Assembly: GCA_017538895.1 (NCBI GenBank)
Contig: JAFYHY010000145.1
Location: forward strand, 1-38,936
Length of the DNA: 38,936 nt
Direction: 5' to 3'
From: Aeriscardovia sp.
GTDB lineage: Bacteria > Actinomycetota > Actinomycetes > Actinomycetales > Bifidobacteriaceae
The notes below the pieces were generated by a model. It saw nothing but the letters and a program-made list of their open reading frames with translations. It made no database searches and had not been told where the DNA came from. Made by a program: the position numbers and the translations under genes. The first letter of the stretch is position 1. Every line of letters starts with the position of its first letter. Shown here piece by piece: positions 6,219-38,936 of this stretch.

Positions 6219-7205
6219 TTAGCTTATACATCTATCAAATGCTGCTTTGACTGACTCTTCATTGGTTGAAACATAAAGCATTGTCGTTTCAATCTTCACA
6301 TGCCCGGCATATTCCTTTATGTCCTGAATATTTGCTCCACGTTTACTCATATCAGTTAATAGAGTCCTTCTGAACTTATGTGGATGTGCAACAACTCCGC
6401 ACCGTTCTCCAAGATTCTTAATCATTAACTGAACTGCTCTTTCATCAATCCTATGAAATGGCTTTCTTAAAGATACAAATAATGCAGGATCATTATCTGT
6501 TCGACTTTCAAGGTAACTCTTCAGATAATAAACACTTTGCTCTGTAAGAAAGACTTTTCTCTCTGCCTTGCCTTTCTGTCCATATATTATGATTTCCGCT
6601 TTGTTACCAATAAATTTTACATCTTCTCTATTCAAAGCAAGGATTTCTCCAAGTCTGCCCGCAGTGCTATACAAAACTTCCATGATTGCCATATCTCGCA
6701 TACATTTAGCTGTTCTTGTAAGTCTAAGCCTCTCCTCTGCTGTGTAAGGTTTCTTTATTAGCCTTGGAACTTTTATCCTTTGAAGCTTTCTTGCAGGGTT
6801 CGTCCGGATAATCTCTTCATCCTGGCACCATCTAAAGAATCCATTCAGAATGTGCCTAATGTTTTCCGAGTATTGCATCGAGATTTTTCTTTCTTCTATG
6901 TACTTAGCCATAAAAAATCTTAAGTCATTAGAAGTTATGTCTCTTATTGGCTTTCCAATCTCAGAATACATTATCCTCAGAATCCTTCGGTAGTTCATGA
7001 TAGTGCCATCTGCACAGTTTTCAAGCTTCTTACATCCTAGATAATTTTTTAGAATCTGCTCCCAACTTTCAAAACCTGTACTCACTTCATTCTTCGGACT
7101 TATTTGATTGTTTAAATTGATAATCAACACATTCCTAAGTTTTCTGATCTGCTCTGGTGACAAATCATCCATTGCGTTTACGATTTTATTAATTACTTCT
7201 TCCAT
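6219..7205 (-). CDS. Tyrosine recombinase, probable fibre-cassette invertase
   Basis: A 328-aa XerC/D-type recombinase. The N-terminal core-binding domain is at about residues 45-145. The catalytic set is visible: Arg184 in TAGRLGEIL, a Lys near 212, His276 and Arg279 in HPHKFRR, His302 in AGHVKIETT and Tyr311. It sits between two pairs of inverted alternative fibre ends, so its likely job is site-specific inversion at the TAGCAAT sites, much as Rci does in shufflons, rather than phage integration. A separate integrase exists at 33.4 kb. Its ribosome site is buried in a hairpin. Confidence 0.85.
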   Translation of the reverse strand: MEEVINKIVNAMDDLSPEQIRKLRNVLIINLNNQISPKNEVSTGFESWEQILKNYLGCKKLENCADGTIMNYRRILRIMYSEIGKPIRDITSNDLRFFMAKYIEERKISMQYSENIRHILNGFFRWCQDEEIIRTNPARKLQRIKVPRLIKKPYTAEERLRLTRTAKCMRDMAIMEVLYSTAGRLGEILALNREDVKFIGNKAEIIIYGQKGKAERKVFLTEQSVYYLKSYLESRTDNDPALFVSLRKPFHRIDERAVQLMIKNLGERCGVVAHPHKFRRTLLTDMSKRGANIQDIKEYAGHVKIETTMLYVSTNEESVKAAFDRCIS

Positions 7206-19748: not shown

Positions 19749-20064
19749 GCCTTCTCCTCTCTTTGTCTATTTTTTCAATAAGTTCTATCACCGGACTTTC
19801 AATAGGTGTAAACCATCCATTTTCAGGGCTTAAATACCCATCTTCCCTAAGTTTCATCGAATTATATGCGCTCTGACCAAGCATGTTACGAACTAAACCA
19901 TCCATATTTAGCTCTGGCGCTTGCGCAGTTAATTCAATCGTATCTGGCGCAAAAAATCTCTCGGCTATCTCTTCTTCCTCGGCACTAAGCTCTATATCCG
20001 ATACATGCCCAAGTTCCTCAAAATGCTCACCGTCCACCGAGCACAACAATTTTCCCATTCTCAT
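19702..20064 (-). CDS. Hypothetical acidic protein
   Basis: A 120-aa protein, beta-rich at the start (MGKLLCSVDGEHFEELGHV), acidic in the middle (ELSAEEEEIAERFF), with a basic C-terminus (KIDKERRRHDKERERSTK). A second ATG at 20058 is an equal alternative start. It overlaps its neighbours on both sides. Function unknown. Confidence 0.45.
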   Translation of the reverse strand: MRMGKLLCSVDGEHFEELGHVSDIELSAEEEEIAERFFAPDTIELTAQAPELNMDGLVRNMLGQSAYNSMKLREDGYLSPENGWFTPIESPVIELIEKIDKERRRHDKERERSTKSGIEE

Positions 20065-20197
20065 ACACCTCTATGTCTTTCTTCATCGCCAGGTCATGCA
20101 CGTTCTCAACTACTTTGTTCAGTGGCTTGTCTTTAAAGAAATCAGCTGTCTCATTCTTTATTCGTATCGTCCTTGTCTGTGTCTTACTACTACTCAT
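20027..20197 (-). CDS. Small RHH-like protein
   Basis: A 56-aa protein whose ATG overlaps the stop of the preceding RHH gene (ATGA, 20194-20197). TQTRTIRIKNETADFF followed by LNKVVENVHDLAMKK fits a minimal ribbon-helix-helix fold. It overlaps the next gene by 38 nt in another frame. It is the third RHH-type protein in a row; a heteromeric or autoregulatory set is possible. Confidence 0.5.
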   Translation of the reverse strand: MSSSKTQTRTIRIKNETADFFKDKPLNKVVENVHDLAMKKDIEVYENGKIVVLGGR

Positions 20198-22309: not shown

Positions 22310-22834
22310 ATGATTAGAATTTTTATAACAAATTTGGGACTTTATAACGCCGGTGTTCTTTGTGGCGAATGGGTTGACTTGCCCTGTGACGACTTTGGCC
22401 CGGTGTATGACCGTATCAAGGTATGCCACGATGATAAAAAGTATTATGACGGCTGTGGCAATCCTTATGAGGAGGTATTCATCACAGATTATGAGACATC
22501 ATTTGGCCTTGAAATAAGCGAATACCAGAATATTGAGAAACTTAATAAACTCGCTGAGACGCTTGAAGATATTGACGATGAGATAATTGAAGCGCTGCTA
22601 TATTTCGGTGTTGACTGGGAAAACATCCCCACGGAGGCTGAAAACGTCTATGTGTACGCTGATTGCAAGGATATGACCGATGTAGCCTATGAAATAGTAG
22701 AACAGACGGGAATGCTTAAACAAATGTCTGAAAACTTGCGTTCTTACTTTGATTATGAGGCATACGGCCGCGATCTTAACATTGAGGGCAATTTCTATTA
22801 TAGCAATGGCAACTATTACGAATATGTAGGCTAA
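22310..22834 (+). CDS. ardA: ArdA-type anti-restriction protein
   Basis: A 174-aa acidic protein, close to the usual ArdA length. The family start is clear (FITNLGLYNAGVLCGEWVDL), as is the end (YFDYEAYGRDLNIEGNFYYS). ArdA dimers mimic bent DNA and inhibit type I restriction enzymes, which protects incoming DNA. It is first in its operon and is preceded by an AGAGAGAGGTTAGAAAC leader, so it would be made early on entry. ArdA is typical of conjugative elements and also occurs in phages. Confidence 0.9.
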   Translation: MIRIFITNLGLYNAGVLCGEWVDLPCDDFGPVYDRIKVCHDDKKYYDGCGNPYEEVFITDYETSFGLEISEYQNIEKLNKLAETLEDIDDEIIEALLYFGVDWENIPTEAENVYVYADCKDMTDVAYEIVEQTGMLKQMSENLRSYFDYEAYGRDLNIEGNFYYSNGNYYEYVG

Positions 22835-26332: not shown

Positions 26333-27448
26333 ATGGCATTTAGAGGACTAAATCTAAACACTAGCTATTCTTTTAATAGCTATCATTATAAATCACAGGA
26401 CATTGAAAACATCAACAGAATATTTGAGCAGTACGGCCTTAAGGTCAATGATGTCAAGGAAAGTGCACAGGTCGTAAGATATGTTATCAACCTGCCTCTT
26501 GACGTAACTCTAAACGGGAAAATCCTACGCGCTAAGAAGGCAATTGAGTCAACCTTAGCTGCTGCCCTGCGCTCCGATAATGTGTCGTACTTCCAGACCG
26601 GTGATACGATTGTTATTGAGCGCCAAGGTGCGTTTAACGTCATTCCCTTTGGCAAGCTCTATACATCCGACTTCCACAACATCACAAGCATGACTTCTGT
26701 AGTCCTTGGGCAAGACCTAAATGGTAAGCTAATCTATACAGACATAGCCAAGGCTCCGCATATCCTTATCGCTGGAACGACTGGAAGTGGTAAATCTGAG
26801 ACAATCCATTCTATCATCGCTTCGCTACTGATGCACAACACCTACTCTACGCCCTCATGTTCTGATATCACAAGCACCATCATAAGCATTATTGACATGA
26901 AAGGTACTGAGTATACCAAATACAAAGATACATCTATCAATCTTGTAAGCAATGAAAATGACGCTTATTCTCTTCTAGCTGAGCTGTGCGACTCTATGGA
27001 GTCTAGGTATGCTTTTCTTGCTGAACATGGCTGTGATGACATTGACGAATATCAATCCAAAGGATATAGACTATCACGAAAGATATGTATCATTGACGAA
27101 TTTGCTGACCTGATCTTAAAGAACAGGCAGGTTGAGGATTATATCGTAAGACTTGCTCAAAAGGCAAGGGGATGCGGCATACATCTAATCTTAGGCACTC
27201 AGTCACCAAGACACGACGTTGTAACAGGTCTTATCAAGGCTAACTTTCCCTTTAGGATTGCCCTTAATACTTCGAGCGCTATGGAGTCTCGCATTATCTT
27301 AGACGAGACCGGAGCAGAAAAGCTATTTGGTAAAGGCGACATGCTTATCAAAAAAGGCGGTAACAAGCCTATTCGTGCACAGGGATGCTTTGTATCTGAT
27401 GAAGACAAGTTGAGCATAGCAAGTATCATTGCTTCAAATAAAGTTTAA
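26333..27448 (+). CDS. FtsK/SpoIIIE-like DNA translocase, soluble
   Basis: A 371-aa ATPase. Residues about 30-110 resemble the alpha domain of FtsK/TcpA proteins. Walker A is AGTTGSGKS (147-155), Walker B ICIIDEFADL (251-260), and an AQKARGCGIHLILGTQSP sensor-like segment follows. There is no membrane anchor and no C-terminal winged-helix gamma domain. Orf21 of Tn916 and TcpA couple DNA to transfer machinery; a free motor could act in DNA partition, dimer handling or mobilisation. It ends the operon before a terminator. Confidence 0.85.
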   Translation: MAFRGLNLNTSYSFNSYHYKSQDIENINRIFEQYGLKVNDVKESAQVVRYVINLPLDVTLNGKILRAKKAIESTLAAALRSDNVSYFQTGDTIVIERQGAFNVIPFGKLYTSDFHNITSMTSVVLGQDLNGKLIYTDIAKAPHILIAGTTGSGKSETIHSIIASLLMHNTYSTPSCSDITSTIISIIDMKGTEYTKYKDTSINLVSNENDAYSLLAELCDSMESRYAFLAEHGCDDIDEYQSKGYRLSRKICIIDEFADLILKNRQVEDYIVRLAQKARGCGIHLILGTQSPRHDVVTGLIKANFPFRIALNTSSAMESRIILDETGAEKLFGKGDMLIKKGGNKPIRAQGCFVSDEDKLSIASIIASNKV

Positions 27449-29853: not shown

Positions 29854-30329
29854 GCTTTACATAAAAAACATTGCTTTGCATAATAACTGCTTTGAATCTT
29901 TGGCTTTGCTTTTGACCTTTTATTCCTATCTAATAACGCTTTGCATATTTGCTGTGCTTTGTGCTTTTGGCCTTTTTCATTTACATCTACCGCTTTGCAT
30001 TTTGATAAGCTTTTAGGAACCATTGTTAGAGGTATACAATAACAGGTTTGGTGTTTTGTAGTTACATAGGCTCCTAAAAGCAATATCTGCTAATAATTCG
30101 TTCCCACGCTTGCATCTTTTGGCTCTACACTGAATTTGGCGCTTTGCATCCATAATAGTCACGCATTACATAGCAAGCGAGAGGGCTTTACATCTATGGC
30201 AAAAGAGCCAATTCTTCAATCGCATCGCTTTGACTTTCCGCAAAATTGACCTTTCTAAAAGTCTTATCAAGCAAGAACATAGGAATATCACGCTTTGCAT
30301 TTATGAAAATCTCATATTTACCATTAAAT
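29854..30329 (-). repeat. Degenerate repeat tract, decayed distal part of the array
   Basis: At least eleven copies of GCTTTGCAT-like sequence (29854, 29873, 29889, 29903, 29938, 29956, 29992, 30141, 30185, 30227, 30292; also GCTTGCAT at 30108). These are the part of the repeat that would touch the guide. Two nearly full but mutated repeats are visible: 30045-30080 (ending TTACATAGGCTCCTAAAAG) and 30227-30261 (ending CTTTCTAAAAG), the latter followed by an exact 30-nt spacer (30262-30291). Elsewhere the units are 14-44 nt apart, so spacers have been lost. No protein gene is credible here. Confidence 0.6.
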
Positions 30330-30757
30330 GCTTTACATTCATGTAAAATTACATGCTTCTAAAAGTAGTTAGATTAAAACAAGAATCAATCGTCAGCTTT
30401 GCATACATACAAATTCACATACTTCTTAAAGGCAAGATTTATCGTATACCATCATTGGCTTTGCATACATGCAAATTTACATACTTCTAAAAGTCGGCGG
30501 AATTTCTTCGCTTATGAATCCCGGCTTTGCATACATGCAAATTTACATACTTCTAAAAGTATTGAATCCAGAAGAATTGATTATCGTCAGCTTTGCATAC
30601 ATGCAAATTTACATACTTCTAAAAGATGTATCCAACTTTAAATACATAAACCAGCGCTTTGCATACATGCAAATTTACATACTTCTAAAAGTATTTTCAT
30701 CTAAGCATGAGGGCGGATGACGCTTTGCATACATGCAAATTTACATACTTCTAAAAG
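30330..30757 (-). CRISPR. CRISPR-like array: seven 36-nt repeats, six spacers
   Basis: Repeats lie at 30330, 30396, 30458, 30524, 30590, 30656 and 30722, each 36 nt. The last five are identical (GCTTTGCATACATGCAAATT then TACATACTTCTAAAAG on the plus strand). Spacers are 30 nt except 26 nt at 30432-30457, and differ from each other. Orientation is probably minus: tnpB has the same direction, the decayed repeats are at the far end, and repeat changes keep the hairpin only as minus-strand RNA. The crRNA-like product would be repeat 5', ending in TTTGCA-TGTA-TGCAAA-GC, then spacer 3', as in type V. Confidence 0.85.
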
Positions 30758-30932
30758 GTCAAATTCATAAGATGCAAGGGATTAAATCCCGGCTGAATAC
30801 TTATAAAAAGATATACTTTTATGATCCATTCCTATTTCATCGAGTATGCTTTCGACGATGGTGCTGTCTACTAACAAGTTCAAGTACTCTCCATAGGCGT
30901 AAATTCCCGAACCAGCTTTCGGTACAATATTA
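30758..30932 (-). other. tnpB-array junction: leader / former tnpB 3' end
   Basis: 175 nt between the tnpB stop and the first perfect repeat. Another frame stays open on the minus strand to TAA at 30783-30785 and encodes GSGIYAYGEYLNLLVDSTIV followed by an ILDEIGMDHKS segment, which looks like the usual C-terminal tail of TnpB proteins. So tnpB once seems to have reached further and been shortened by a frameshift near 30935-30990. In TnpB elements this is where the omega RNA scaffold lies, so a scaffold or tracr-like RNA is expected here. Confidence 0.5.
30774..30810 (-). ncRNA. Divergent repeat-like element, candidate omega-RNA 3' scaffold
   Basis: On the minus strand it starts CTTTTTATAAGTAT, against CTTTTAGAAGTAT at the start of each repeat. 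It then has a different hairpin (GGGAT-TTA-ATCCC) at the same position and ends in TTGC. Length is 37 nt against 36. Only 16 nt separate it from the first perfect repeat, the length of a TnpB guide. Function is inferred. Confidence 0.45.
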
Positions 30933-32099
30933 TTATTTTGCAATATTCTCTTCTCCATATGTCCTAAGATTGAGCGCCGCCTGCTTATGTACATCAATAA
31001 CATTCCCACACTCACACTTATATGTCTTTTGATAAGGTTTTAAATCTTTCTTTATCCTGCCGCATTGACTGCATTTCTTGGATGATGGAAATTTCCTGTC
31101 TGCTCTTATGAATTGGATTCCTTTGAAATTACTCTTATATTCAAGCTGCCTTGAAAATTCATAAAGTGACTGTTCCTGAATTGCTTTTGCAAGGTATTTA
31201 TTCTTCATCATGCTCTGAATATTCAGGTCATCAATGCAGATGAATTTAGGATTCTTTTCAACAATCTCTTTTGACGTATTATGGAGATAATTCTTCCGGA
31301 TATTACTTAGCCTATGATGCATCTTAAGTAATTTTTTCTCATCTTTTATTATGTTCTTTGTCTTAACAAACTCCTCCCCTTCTTTATTCATTTCGTATTT
31401 CCTTGATATGCTACGTTGCAATCTTCGTTTTCGTTTCTCTAGGTCTTTGATTGCCTTAGTCTTATTGATATTAGGATAGATACTATCATCAGAGCATACA
31501 GCAAGGTTCCTAACTCCTAGATCAACACCTAATCCTTCTTTAGATAAGTTCACATTCTTATCAGGATATTCTATCCCTACGCTTATCCACCAATTAAGAC
31601 CATCGTAAGTTATCCTCGGATTGCTATGCTTTACATTTATTGGTATCTTGCCATGTTCTGCAAGTCTTACCCAGTTTAATTGTTTTCTGTTTGCCTTCCT
31701 GCTAAGAGACAAACAACTTAGCTTTACATGTGTATCGGTAAATTCTATAACCTGGTCTGTCTGAAAGAAACTTGGTTTTGTCTTATTCTTTGATTTATAT
31801 TTGGGAAATTTCGCTCTCTTCTTAAAAAAGTTTAAATAGGCATCACAGGCATCTTTTATAGCCTTTTGGCATGTTGTGATTGATATTTCATTAAGCCATG
31901 CATATTCATCTGTTCTCTTAAGCTCTGTGAGTTCTTTTGCAAGCTCATAATATGATATGAATTTCCCGCCTGCTTTATAATTTTCTTCTTCCCTTGAAAG
32001 TGCCCAATTGTATAGAAATCTTGCCGCTCCCGCGTGTTGGAATAGCCTTGTCTTTTGAACGTTGTTAGGAAGAAGCATTACCTTTATTGACTTAATCAT
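30933..32099 (-). CDS. TnpB-like RNA-guided protein, RuvC active site degraded
   Basis: A 388-aa protein, normal TnpB length. The N-terminal OrfB/TnpB domain is clear (LYNWALSREEENYKAGGKFI; ITTCQKAIKDACDAYLNFFK). RuvC I keeps Asp193 (GLGVDLGVRNLAV). RuvC II reads CIDDLNI where IEDLN is usual, so the catalytic Glu is Asp290. The zinc ribbon is CSQC...CEC (343-364). RuvC III reads IDVHKQAALNL instead of DRDxNAAxNL, so the catalytic Asp is His371 and Asn is Gln. It probably binds DNA without cutting. It overlaps the XRE gene by 8 nt and lies upstream of the array. Confidence 0.85.
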   Translation of the reverse strand: MIKSIKVMLLPNNVQKTRLFQHAGAARFLYNWALSREEENYKAGGKFISYYELAKELTELKRTDEYAWLNEISITTCQKAIKDACDAYLNFFKKRAKFPKYKSKNKTKPSFFQTDQVIEFTDTHVKLSCLSLSRKANRKQLNWVRLAEHGKIPINVKHSNPRITYDGLNWWISVGIEYPDKNVNLSKEGLGVDLGVRNLAVCSDDSIYPNINKTKAIKDLEKRKRRLQRSISRKYEMNKEGEEFVKTKNIIKDEKKLLKMHHRLSNIRKNYLHNTSKEIVEKNPKFICIDDLNIQSMMKNKYLAKAIQEQSLYEFSRQLEYKSNFKGIQFIRADRKFPSSKKCSQCGRIKKDLKPYQKTYKCECGNVIDVHKQAALNLRTYGEENIAK

Positions 32100-33027
32100 T
32101 ATTAACTCCCATTATCGCAAGGATTAAATCTGCTTTCTGTTTCTTAGTCCAGTTTTCTGCATTTCTTGCTGTCAACCTCTGCACCTCATAAAAATCTTTC
32201 TCCGGATCATTATTGTCAATATCAACACCAAGCAAAGTATTTGCATCAACATGAAGCGCAGTAGCAATCTTGGCTAAGGTTTTGCTATTTGGAATACGCT
32301 CTCCATTTATATATCTTGTCATCGTAACATACGTTACACCAACTTTTTCAGCAAGTATTCTTATCGTAAATCCATTCAACCATATAAGATTGTGTATGCG
32401 TTCTCCCAATTCATTCTTCTTTTCCTTATTTTTAGAACTAAATACTTCTGAAAAACTGATATTGGAATAATCAGTAGGAAATGTAAAAGATTTACCCATT
32501 ATAGATGATTCAGCAATTAACCCATCTCTTGTTAAAATTTCTAATGCTCCAAGTATAACCAAAACTGAAATATCAAACTCGTAATTGCGTTCATTCTCAC
32601 GATGGTATCTAAATGGGATTCTTTCATCACCAAAATGTAATGCTGTATCTCCTTTGTATATGATTGGAATCTTTAATTGGAGATTGTAATATTCTTCTAG
32701 CTTCTCCCAATCACTCTGTTCAATGAATCGCATAGGATATTCAGTAATCTTATTGCATTTTTCTCTTTCGCCCTGTTTTAATTCTTCATGCACTTCAGGT
32801 CTTTCGTAATTGTTATCAAAAACATATTTTAGAGCACCTACGATTTTTAGAGCTTTGGGCTTGTGATTTTGTTTTACGATTTTATAGAAGTACACTTCGG
32901 CAGTCATTCCTTCGCCATCAAACAAAATAAAATCTGCTTTGTCCAATTTTCCCATTCGTCTGTGCTTGTTTTCGTTTAATGGAAACCCAGTGGTAACGTA
33001 TTTATATAAGGCATCTTGTTTAGTCAT
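32092..33027 (-). CDS. XRE-family regulator with large N-terminal domain
   Basis: A 311-aa protein from ATG 33027 (GGAGCGCAAA site; ATGA overlap with the gene before). The C-terminal third has an HTH (RIHNLIWLNGFTIRILAEKV, TYVTMTRYINGERIPNSKTL, AKIATALHVDANTLLGVD). The N-terminal 190 residues are not recognised but contain long alpha/beta sequence (FILFDGEGMTAEVYFYKIVK). It is translationally linked to the TnpB-like gene and may control the integrase-tnpB operon or work with the TnpB-like protein. Confidence 0.7.
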   Translation of the reverse strand: MTKQDALYKYVTTGFPLNENKHRRMGKLDKADFILFDGEGMTAEVYFYKIVKQNHKPKALKIVGALKYVFDNNYERPEVHEELKQGEREKCNKITEYPMRFIEQSDWEKLEEYYNLQLKIPIIYKGDTALHFGDERIPFRYHRENERNYEFDISVLVILGALEILTRDGLIAESSIMGKSFTFPTDYSNISFSEVFSSKNKEKKNELGERIHNLIWLNGFTIRILAEKVGVTYVTMTRYINGERIPNSKTLAKIATALHVDANTLLGVDIDNNDPEKDFYEVQRLTARNAENWTKKQKADLILAIMGVNND

Positions 33028-33353
33028 TTTGCGCTCCATTTGTATTTATGATCTATAGCATAATCAACACATTCTAAAATATCGCTTGTATACATTACTT
33101 TCTTCTGTATGTGATAACCCGGAATGCCTTTGTATAATTTATGCTTCATGTGATAATTATCTTTATGTAAAAGAATCATACAAATATTTCTATTATTCTT
33201 TGAAATCTCAGTCAGGATTATTATCCAAGTATCAAGCCCTATTGAGAATTTGATTCCATTTTTAAAGCCATCCTCAAACTCATACCCATTATCTTTTATA
33301 TATTCTTGTATTCTTCTGGTTATATTTTCTTGTGTATATTCAAAACCGTCCAT
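33024..33353 (-). CDS. Hypothetical protein between integrase and XRE genes
   Basis: A 109-aa protein with a KNGIKFSIGLDTWIIILTEI beta-strand pair and a basic C-terminus (YAIDHKYKWSAK). It overlaps the XRE gene by 4 nt and follows the integrase by 26 nt, so all belong to one operon. No motif recognised. It could be an excisionase-like or antitoxin-like partner, but nothing in the sequence shows it. Confidence 0.5.
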   Translation of the reverse strand: MDGFEYTQENITRRIQEYIKDNGYEFEDGFKNGIKFSIGLDTWIIILTEISKNNRNICMILLHKDNYHMKHKLYKGIPGYHIQKKVMYTSDILECVDYAIDHKYKWSAK

Positions 33354-33379: not shown

Positions 33380-34663
33380 CTAAAATCCAATATTGATTCT
33401 GTTCATTGCACTCTGTAATGTAGGATTAGTAACATGCACATACAAATTCATAGTAATTGCATAATCTGCATGTCCTAATAATTCCTGTAATGTCCTTGGT
33501 TCAACACCAGACTCAATTGCTCTTGTCGCAAAAGTATCACGAAAAGCATGTGTTCCAAAATGCTCAATACCCGTTTCTTCACATATCTTACTTATCTCTC
33601 TATCAATAGGCGTAGCCATTAATAACCCACCTCTAGGTGCCTTAAACACTCTATCATCATCAACATTATTAAATGCCTTATTTTTTTCTCGCTGTGAATA
33701 TAAAACTTCCTTAATTGCATCGTTTAAAGGAATCACTCTTCTTCCATGAAATGTTTTTGTTTCCGTCCCAACAAAATATGAACCATTTGTGGCTCTTGTT
33801 AAAGTGCGTTCAATGTGAATTTCATTATTATATATATCGCAAAATTTTAATGCTCCAATTTCTCCAATTCTCATCCCTGTTAGTATTGCGAATTTATATA
33901 CATTAAAGTATGTGCTATTTTGTGCCTTATCAAAAAACCGCCTAGTTTCTTCAGTTGTTAATGCTCTGTGTATCGTCTCTCGCGCAGCAATCTCCGTATT
34001 TTTTAATGGTCTTACCGCACAACATGGATTGTATGTTATATATTGTTCTCGTATTGCATCATGAAAAATATGCGATAAAAAAAATATTTTGTCATTTATA
34101 GTTCTGGTACTATTTTTCCTTTTCAAAAGTGCTTTCTGAATTTCTCTGATATCATCTGCTCTTATTTCAGAAAGCCTATAGTCCTTAAATTTTTTTCCAT
34201 CTATTTTAACATCTGAAATAGTATTGAAATGACAACGCTGTGATCTTAAAGTTGCTTCTTTGACATATCCGCTTCTGTTATCTTGCCATTTTTCAAAAAA
34301 ATCTCCGATTTTAGGATTCTCAATGTTTTTCTTCTTAAAAATAATTTCTTCTTTCTTTTCTTTGAACTTTTTGTTTAATTCGCTTAATGATGTTGCGCGA
34401 ACATAATATCTTCTTTTGTTGTATGTAAACGTTCTTTGATAACGACCATCTTTACCTCTTTTACATCTGGTATATATTTCTGACAAATCATCATCTATTA
34501 CTTCATATCCAACTTCTTGTTCTAATTGGTCTATTTTTTCTATATACTTTTTTTCAAGTGCTTTTCTTGTTTTGGCATATACCGTATATCGTTTCCCTTC
34601 AAAAGAAAATGTTTTTGCATAATACCCATCTTTTCGCTTTTTTAAGTTCTTTAGTTCTTTCAT
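33380..34663 (-). CDS. int: Tyrosine integrase (Tn916/phage type)
   Basis: A 427-aa integrase with an AAGGAAATAAAG ribosome site. Two N-terminal AP2-like arm-binding repeats (KRKDGYYAKTFSFEGKRYTV and GKDGRYQRTFTYNKRRYYVR, residues 9-28 and 71-90) are followed by a SAM-like core-binding domain (about 120-220) and the catalytic domain: Arg in LTGMRIGEIGAL, HAFRDTFATRA, LGHADYAITMNLYVHVT with the Tyr nucleophile. It should integrate and excise the element. Downstream genes are regulatory, so the attachment site is not directly at its 3' end; I could not locate attP. Confidence 0.9.
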   Translation of the reverse strand: MKELKNLKKRKDGYYAKTFSFEGKRYTVYAKTRKALEKKYIEKIDQLEQEVGYEVIDDDLSEIYTRCKRGKDGRYQRTFTYNKRRYYVRATSLSELNKKFKEKKEEIIFKKKNIENPKIGDFFEKWQDNRSGYVKEATLRSQRCHFNTISDVKIDGKKFKDYRLSEIRADDIREIQKALLKRKNSTRTINDKIFFLSHIFHDAIREQYITYNPCCAVRPLKNTEIAARETIHRALTTEETRRFFDKAQNSTYFNVYKFAILTGMRIGEIGALKFCDIYNNEIHIERTLTRATNGSYFVGTETKTFHGRRVIPLNDAIKEVLYSQREKNKAFNNVDDDRVFKAPRGGLLMATPIDREISKICEETGIEHFGTHAFRDTFATRAIESGVEPRTLQELLGHADYAITMNLYVHVTNPTLQSAMNRINIGF

Positions 34664-38524: not shown

Positions 38525-38936
38525 TTACTCCCCTTTTGTTATCTGTATCTTTGCTTTACCGATATTATCAAGCTCAACAATAAAGGTGTCATTATTGATC
38601 TGAAGTTCATATCCATCATCGTGTAACATTGTGAAAATTGAATCTTTAAGATGTTGAATCCTGCTCTCTATAAATTCGTCTTCAACATATAGACCAAAGC
38701 CATAATATTCATCTATAGCTTTTATAAGTTTATCACCATACCATCCGTACTCTGTCTTTTCAAGACCATTCTCAAGAACTATGCACCAGGACTTAAGAAC
38801 ATCATACATAAGGCTTGAAGAGATGCCTCTTAGGTTTGTTGCTTTTTCGATAGCAAAATCAAGGTCCGCTTTGAGCTGGGCAATTATATTTTCTTCTGTC
38901 CACTCTTTAGGAATATATTCTTCTTCCCCTTTATAA
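38525..38936 (-). CDS. Hypothetical protein, 5' end beyond the window
   Basis: The frame stays open to the right edge, so the internal ATG at 38809 is probably not the start. The visible 137 codons include WTEENIIAQLKADLDFAIEK, TNLRGISSSLMYDVLKSWCI and ENGLEKTEYGWYGDKLIKAI, a helical pattern, then a beta-rich C-terminus. It belongs to the early operon. Function unknown. Confidence 0.5.
   Translation of the reverse strand, partial: YKGEEEYIPKEWTEENIIAQLKADLDFAIEKATNLRGISSSLMYDVLKSWCIVLENGLEKTEYGWYGDKLIKAIDEYYGFGLYVEDEFIESRIQHLKDSIFTMLHDDGYELQINNDTFIVELDNIGKAKIQITKGE

Follow-up and report, generated by a model that had tools for sequence, protein, structure and literature searches.

Intermediates between transposons and CRISPR (clustered regularly interspaced short palindromic repeats) systems, named TranC, were reportedly described by Jin et al. 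(Cell, 2025). A transition form between TnpB and CRISPR is already known as a kind, because about 50 independent TnpB-CRISPR associations have been inferred (PMC12669027). IS607 TnpBs have RAGATH-18 RNAs as their guide-RNA scaffolds, and cutting by one of these proteins, the ISFba1 TnpB, requires D194, E290 and D371 (PMC11061315). Silencing without cutting is known from Cas12m and type IV-A, and plasmid type IV-A systems use the adaptation proteins of host I-E systems (PMC11656645). Here we describe a phage-borne IS607-type tnpB in a contig of 38,936 nucleotides (hereafter the window; GCA_017538895.1, JAFYHY010000145.1) from a metagenome-assembled genome (MAG) classified as Aeriscardovia sp. 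It is followed by a guide-RNA scaffold, a leader and a CRISPR-type array, and its product is altered in the RuvC active site and probably cleavage-impaired.

An initial annotation of this DNA had reported a TnpB-sized protein followed, in the same orientation, by a regular array (36-nt repeats, 30-nt spacers, 66-bp period), and the Pfam matches and repeat coordinates bear this out. It overlooked the RAGATH-18 RNA, the decayed tail of the array, the altered RuvC site and an overlapping repressor gene. The module reads in one direction, as C1-like repressor gene, tnpB, RAGATH-18 scaffold, 30-nt leader and array:

32092-33039, minus strand: helix-turn-helix protein, C1/Cro-type repressor; its 3' end overlaps the start of tnpB by 8 bp.
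30933-32099, minus strand: tnpB (388 amino acids), IS607-type; RuvC residues D193, D290 (normally E) and D369.
30788-30935, minus strand: guide-RNA (reRNA) scaffold, without the 5' stem of array-less relatives and with a covarying pseudoknot kept.
30829-30897, minus strand: RAGATH-18 core (RF03064), 64.4 bits; present in the related phage contigs L002-L005 too.
30758-30787, minus strand: 30-nt leader, or constant scaffold guide; ends AATTTGAC/CTTTTAG.
30366-30757, minus strand: array of six 36-nt repeats, of which five are identical, with six spacers, all 30 nt long except one of 26 nt.
30692-30721, minus strand: spacer 1 (W1), 30/30 to a DnaD-like helicase-loader gene at 10473-10502 of contig C133.
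30330-30365, minus strand: seventh repeat, with 5 mismatches.
29855-30329, minus strand: decayed tail of short units ending [AG]TG[CT]AAAGC.
30009-30081, minus strand: tail hairpin whose 5' arm resembles the repeat and whose 3' arm resembles an anti-repeat; each of the five phages has a counterpart.

The five identical copies of the repeat lie at 30722-30757, 30656-30691, 30590-30625, 30524-30559 and 30458-30493, a period of 66; the sixth copy, at 30396-30431, has 3 mismatches. Given this regularity and the five identical 36-mers, the array is not due to chance. It shows the hallmarks of a CRISPR array, namely identical repeats, unique spacers of constant length, polymorphism at the leader end and a decayed trailer. 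A plain satellite repeat was ruled out, since the spacers differ between relatives. Spacers at the leader end are unique to each phage, except that position 8 of L003 and position 2 of L005 hold the same spacer. At the other end, a block (CCTCTCGCTTGCTATGTAATGCGTGACTATTATGGATGCAAAG) is common to the window and L002, and the tail units are common to L003-L005. Because leader-end spacers differ and trailing units are shared, the locus has the polarity of a CRISPR array that grows at its leader, and we conclude that it is a growing CRISPR-type array.

The units of the decayed tail are spaced 15-45 nt apart; L002 has 4 copies and each of the other four phages 8-10, where 0.2-0.4 would be expected. 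In these units the 3' end of the repeat, which is the spacer side, survives, and the 5' half is mostly lost. The tail of short units looks like a second kind of array. The long hairpin within it (GCTTTTAGGAGCC...GGTTCCTAAAAGC) has a covarying counterpart in L003-L005 and could be an element similar to a trans-activating CRISPR RNA.

A search of viral contigs returned four close relatives, L002-L005, which are 97, 89, 86 and 86% identical. Each has RAGATH-18 and, in the corresponding position, an array whose repeat differs slightly and whose spacers are different, and a scan of all viral contigs for the repeat pattern matched the same four contigs only. The initial annotation had looked to relatives for the same pairing with different spacers, and these four viral contigs (86-97% identical) provide it: both parts are present in all of them, and only relatives at 62% identity or less occur without the array. 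The next relatives, 46-62% identical, are 88 ordinary IS607 TnpBs, 80 of them in GTDB species genomes (the best 80 from 85,000 such genomes) and 8 in viral contigs; no array was found beside any of the 88 wherever their downstream DNA was covered. In a tree of 41 proteins, the array-bearers form one clade (support 100/100) on a long stem (0.76), nested among Lachnospiraceae TnpBs. Neither the array nor its repeat was found in known phages or plasmids. A match of the repeat in a Listeria phage (E 0.06) lies in an apparent protein-coding stretch without an array and was taken as chance.

Pfam OrfB_IS605, Cas12f1-like_TNB and HTH_OrfB all match the window protein above their cut-offs. Its closest solved structure by sequence is the ISFba1 TnpB (8iaz, E 1.1e-70), compared with E 5e-11 for LaTranC. 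An AlphaFold model (mean predicted local distance difference test score, pLDDT, 88.8) likewise finds the ISFba1 TnpB best in a fold search (TM 0.88, E 6.9e-33, 36% identity), ahead of the ISDra2 TnpB, Cas12f and LaTranC, with Cas12m lower still. The protein is thus an IS607-type TnpB, from which Cas12f, Cas12m and LaTranC are far more distant. The initial annotation had named Cas12f and Cas12m as the relatives to compare, and here it erred, the IS607 TnpB of ISFba1 (8iaz) being much closer.

The active site sets the array-bearers apart from these relatives. All five array-bearing proteins carry E290D, such that D-D-D replaces the D-E-D triad of RuvC. The D-E-D triad is kept by most of the 88 array-less relatives, and E290 by every one whose match covers position 290. 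RuvC-III reads D[VI]HKQ in all five array-bearers, compared with a DRD-type motif in nearly all array-less relatives (NRD or GRD in a few). The catalytic aspartates D193 and D369 and the cysteines of the zinc ribbon are retained. Judged from these residues, the array-bearing TnpB is probably impaired in cleavage. The ratio of nonsynonymous to synonymous substitution rates (dN/dS) among the array-bearing proteins is 0.05-0.10, and likewise in the RuvC half; such strong purifying selection indicates a maintained protein rather than decay.

In the scaffold RNA, the first stem seen in array-less relatives is missing from the array-bearers. They keep the RAGATH-18 core, and the pseudoknot beside the guide position is preserved by compensatory changes (columns 63-66 with 196-199). 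The 30 nt directly 3' of the scaffold are nearly constant in the five phages, and could be either a leader or a fixed guide. A second target of this segment was not found in the MAG, and the phage contigs gave one other match, with 2 mismatches.

The array itself resembles those of type II-A. In register with reference repeats of type II-A(1), taken from PMC4607530, its repeat agrees at 25/36 positions with Listeria innocua, 23/36 with S. thermophilus cr3 and 22/36 with Treponema. None of 1000 dinucleotide shuffles did as well; the likeness to II-C was much weaker, and II-B gave no match. The leader-repeat junction of type II-A group 1 is ATTTGAG/GTTT (PMC5382924). Here it is ATTTGAC/CTTT in all five phages, and this junction motif is confined to the five loci within the 2.6 Mb of DNA examined. 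The 3' arm of the scaffold (CTTTTTATAAGTATT) was considered as a source of the repeat and rejected, the likeness being no better than that of shuffles (75/500). Because the repeat and leader end resemble type II-A, the array probably does not derive from the TnpB guide RNA. The simplest account would be that a type II-A array was captured beside the TnpB scaffold and is filled in trans by the adaptation complex of the host.

What the spacers target is partly visible, as three of the 27 match the genome of the phage that carries them. Two further features of the window bear on these matches:

38796-38936: contig join; these 141 bp recur without a mismatch at positions 1-141 of contig C133 of the MAG.
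20063-20092, minus strand: homologue (25/30) of the self-target of L004 spacer 1.

The end overlap of 141 bp between the window (contig C5 of the MAG) and C133 is exact and the resulting order agrees with that of the L004 phage, from which we conclude that both contigs belong to the same phage genome. The match of W1 on C133 therefore lies in a replication gene of the same phage, in antisense orientation. Spacer 1 of L004 (C1) matches a small gene in its own contig at 30/30 and also matches the L003 contig, while spacer 10 of L003 (B10) matches its own tape-measure-like gene, named from its sequence, at 28/30. The BLAST E values per genome are 3e-9 for W1, 2e-10 for C1 and 4e-8 for B10. These self-matches speak against an efficient cutter.

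For the other 24 spacers we found no convincing match, few relevant genomes being searchable. A match of the fourth window spacer (W4) in a 202-kb phage (22/30) was put down to chance, and W5 gave an unconvincing one (23/26) in a different genome from the family of the MAG, at E 2.7e-4 per genome with 189 genomes compared. Spacer B6 of L003 (L003 6708-6736) matches many genomes; its complement encodes LSGGQKQRTA, the ABC-transporter signature, and no exact target was found. The target of B6 is perhaps a host or plasmid gene rather than a phage structural gene.

The initial annotation read the locus as a new transition form between TnpB and type V CRISPR. The genuine multi-spacer array upholds part of this; the altered RuvC site, the self-matching spacers, the type II-A-like repeat and the fact that the kind was already known do not. 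The altered RuvC site and self-matching spacers together point to a DNA-binding regulator rather than a cutting transition form. We therefore tentatively favour, without reaching an even balance of belief, a reading from sequence in which a domesticated, cleavage-impaired TnpB, guided by spacers gained in trans, silences genes of its own phage and of related phages. An IS607 TnpB, its guide-RNA scaffold and a CRISPR array would all have been domesticated by a family of temperate phages, and the repressor-tnpB transcript would extend through scaffold and array. A host type II-A-like Cas1-Cas2, acting in trans, would insert phage DNA in lengths of 30 nt at the leader (ATTTGAC/CTTT). With E290D and DRD changed to D[VI]H, TnpB might then bind sites that match array-derived guides and not cut them efficiently. 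Once bound, it could block transcription or replication of genes of its own or related phages, and such silencing would reinforce lysogeny and exclude superinfecting relatives. It is tempting to speculate further that the phage has an updatable repressor, with a cleavage-dead TnpB, encoded alongside the repressor and integrase of the phage, reading an array that host type II-A adaptation proteins keep filled with phage DNA. We hold this stronger version to be doubtful; if true, the lytic genes of the phage and of its relatives would be subject, in each lysogen, to a silencing programme that is heritable and sequence-specific.

Several observations weigh against silencing by array-guided TnpB. 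The constant leader occupies the scaffold's guide position, and pairing between repeat and scaffold beats shuffles only in L002 (5/300) and not in the other four loci. Because no repeat-scaffold pairing stands out, guide loading is the weakest step of the favoured mechanism. The 5' flanks of the self-targets (four sites) share no target-adjacent motif (TAM), only 3 of 27 spacers are self-targeting, and the targeted gene differs from phage to phage. In addition, the change from E to D is conservative, and some nuclease activity may remain.

The type II-A character of the array invites a different explanation, in which a virus-borne mini-array feeds or titrates a host type II-A Cas9 and TnpB works separately with its own constant guide, the leader. 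Repeat sequence, repeat length, spacer length and leader end are all type II-A-like, and virus-borne mini-arrays against related viruses are known (PMC6858448). The 3' flanks of three self-targets (TAAAGC, GAGAAT, AAAAAT) are somewhat alike, and the protospacer-adjacent motifs of type II lie on the 3' side, but three sites are too few. However, the perfect self-matches would have Cas9 cut the carrier phage. The array stands behind tnpB and scaffold in 5/5 phages, and TnpB is altered in this clade alone. The decayed units lose the 5' half of the repeat, which is the part relevant to Cas9; the preserved guide-side end suits a Cas9 CRISPR RNA less well than an RNA with handle first and guide second, the order found in TnpB and Cas12. 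Known mini-arrays also have repeats identical to those of the host and 1-2 spacers (PMC6858448), and no host array with this repeat was found, the host genome not having been identified. We therefore consider this explanation rather unlikely, although it is the main rival.

We regard as less probable still a TnpB-CRISPR effector (TranC or type V-U-like) that continues to cut and serves in warfare between phages, with self-matching spacers that do no harm for lack of a TAM at the self sites. This would agree with the retention of D193, D369 and the cysteines of the zinc ribbon, with the RuvC half being under strong purifying selection and with the absence of a common 5' TAM at the self sites. 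Yet E290 is needed in ISFba1, is universal in the covered array-less relatives and is D in all five proteins here; RuvC-III is rewritten too, and of the few spacers whose target is known at all, three match the carrier phage. The conserved 30 nt, which sit exactly at the guide position in five phages beside a covarying pseudoknot, could instead mean a single fixed guide, similar to TldR, in which scaffold and constant segment target a conserved host site such as a host CRISPR leader and the array is a bystander grown from the leader. A leader would be conserved anyway, though, and with no second site in the MAG and the single imperfect match in the phage contigs, we judge this improbable. That the locus is a decaying, non-functional remnant or plain repeat was already disfavoured and seems very improbable: the degenerate tail and a diverged IS607 TnpB with no TnpA recognised nearby would fit, but the module is intact in five phages, dN/dS is low, the leader-end repeats are perfect and the spacers differ per phage.

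The window as a whole is phage DNA (37.2% GC content), with genes for a major head protein, portal, terminase, integrase and C1-type repressor, and the phage integrase setting described by the initial annotation was confirmed. Other genes in the window and on C133 include:

33380-34663, minus strand: tyrosine integrase.
6219-7205, minus strand: second tyrosine-integrase-like gene, inside the region of structural genes.
22310-22834, plus strand: anti-restriction protein, on the strand opposite to the structural genes.
26333-27448, plus strand: FtsK/SpoIIIE-like protein, likewise on the opposite strand.
C133 12145-13464, minus strand: phage gene matching phosphoadenosine phosphosulfate reductase (CysH-like).

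C133 further holds tRNA genes of this phage and its genes for helicase loaders, an apparent C5-methyltransferase and an exonuclease. GC content is 37% in the phage contigs and about 40% in the larger MAG contigs; given this gap and the Lachnospiraceae origin of the closest TnpB relatives, the binning of the phage may be wrong, which leaves its host uncertain. The initial annotation had seen no cas1, cas2 or tnpA. Consistent with this, neither the MAG nor any of the four related phage contigs yielded a Cas1, none of the flanking genes compared with Pfam and PHROGs was recognised as a serine recombinase (TnpA), and no cas9, cas2 or csn2 was recognised nearby among annotated genes, the true host not having been identified.

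We did not find the combination of altered RuvC site, type II-A-like array, lysogeny context and self-matching spacers in the literature searched, although the lineage may have been described earlier. Similar to the IS607 TnpB of ISFba1 (PMC11061315, 8iaz), the present system has the same family and fold and a scaffold RNA directly downstream. It differs in that no TnpA was recognised, E290D is present, RuvC-III is rewritten, the 5' stem of the scaffold is lost, and a leader and array follow. With TranC (LaTranC, 9jfo/9jfq) it shares a TnpB-like effector, a scaffold-like RNA, a CRISPR array and a lack of adaptation genes. Unlike TranC, it is distant in sequence and phage-borne, has an altered active site and self-matching spacers, and its repeat is like type II-A rather than the scaffold end. 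TldR (PMC13418256) is likewise a phage-borne TnpB descendant with a damaged RuvC that has kept its guide RNA and likely binds without cutting, but it works with one guide, directed at a host gene, and lacks an array (the main text of PMC13418256 does not contain the word "array").

Type V-M (Cas12m) and type IV-A systems (PMC11656645) also have effectors with defective cleavage, which are carried by mobile elements and silence others; their effector family is different, Cas12m being a distant fold match, and their spacers mainly target other elements. Virus-borne mini-CRISPR arrays (PMC6858448) are carried by viruses without cas genes and have spacers against related viruses, whereas the arrays here have 3-10 spacers, their own effector gene and scaffold, and matches in their own genome. 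Type II-A arrays (PMC4607530, PMC5382924) share the 36-nt repeat, the 30-nt spacer, up to 25/36 repeat positions and the leader end ATTTGA, yet C replaces G at the first repeat base and the last leader base. Two questions become testable: whether a TnpB descendant's array can come from a captured type II-A array rather than from duplication of its guide RNA, and whether guide arrays take part in phage self-regulation and superinfection immunity. TnpB-to-CRISPR transitions are known mainly as nucleases; the present case joins an altered catalytic site, a borrowed-looking array and self-matching spacers.
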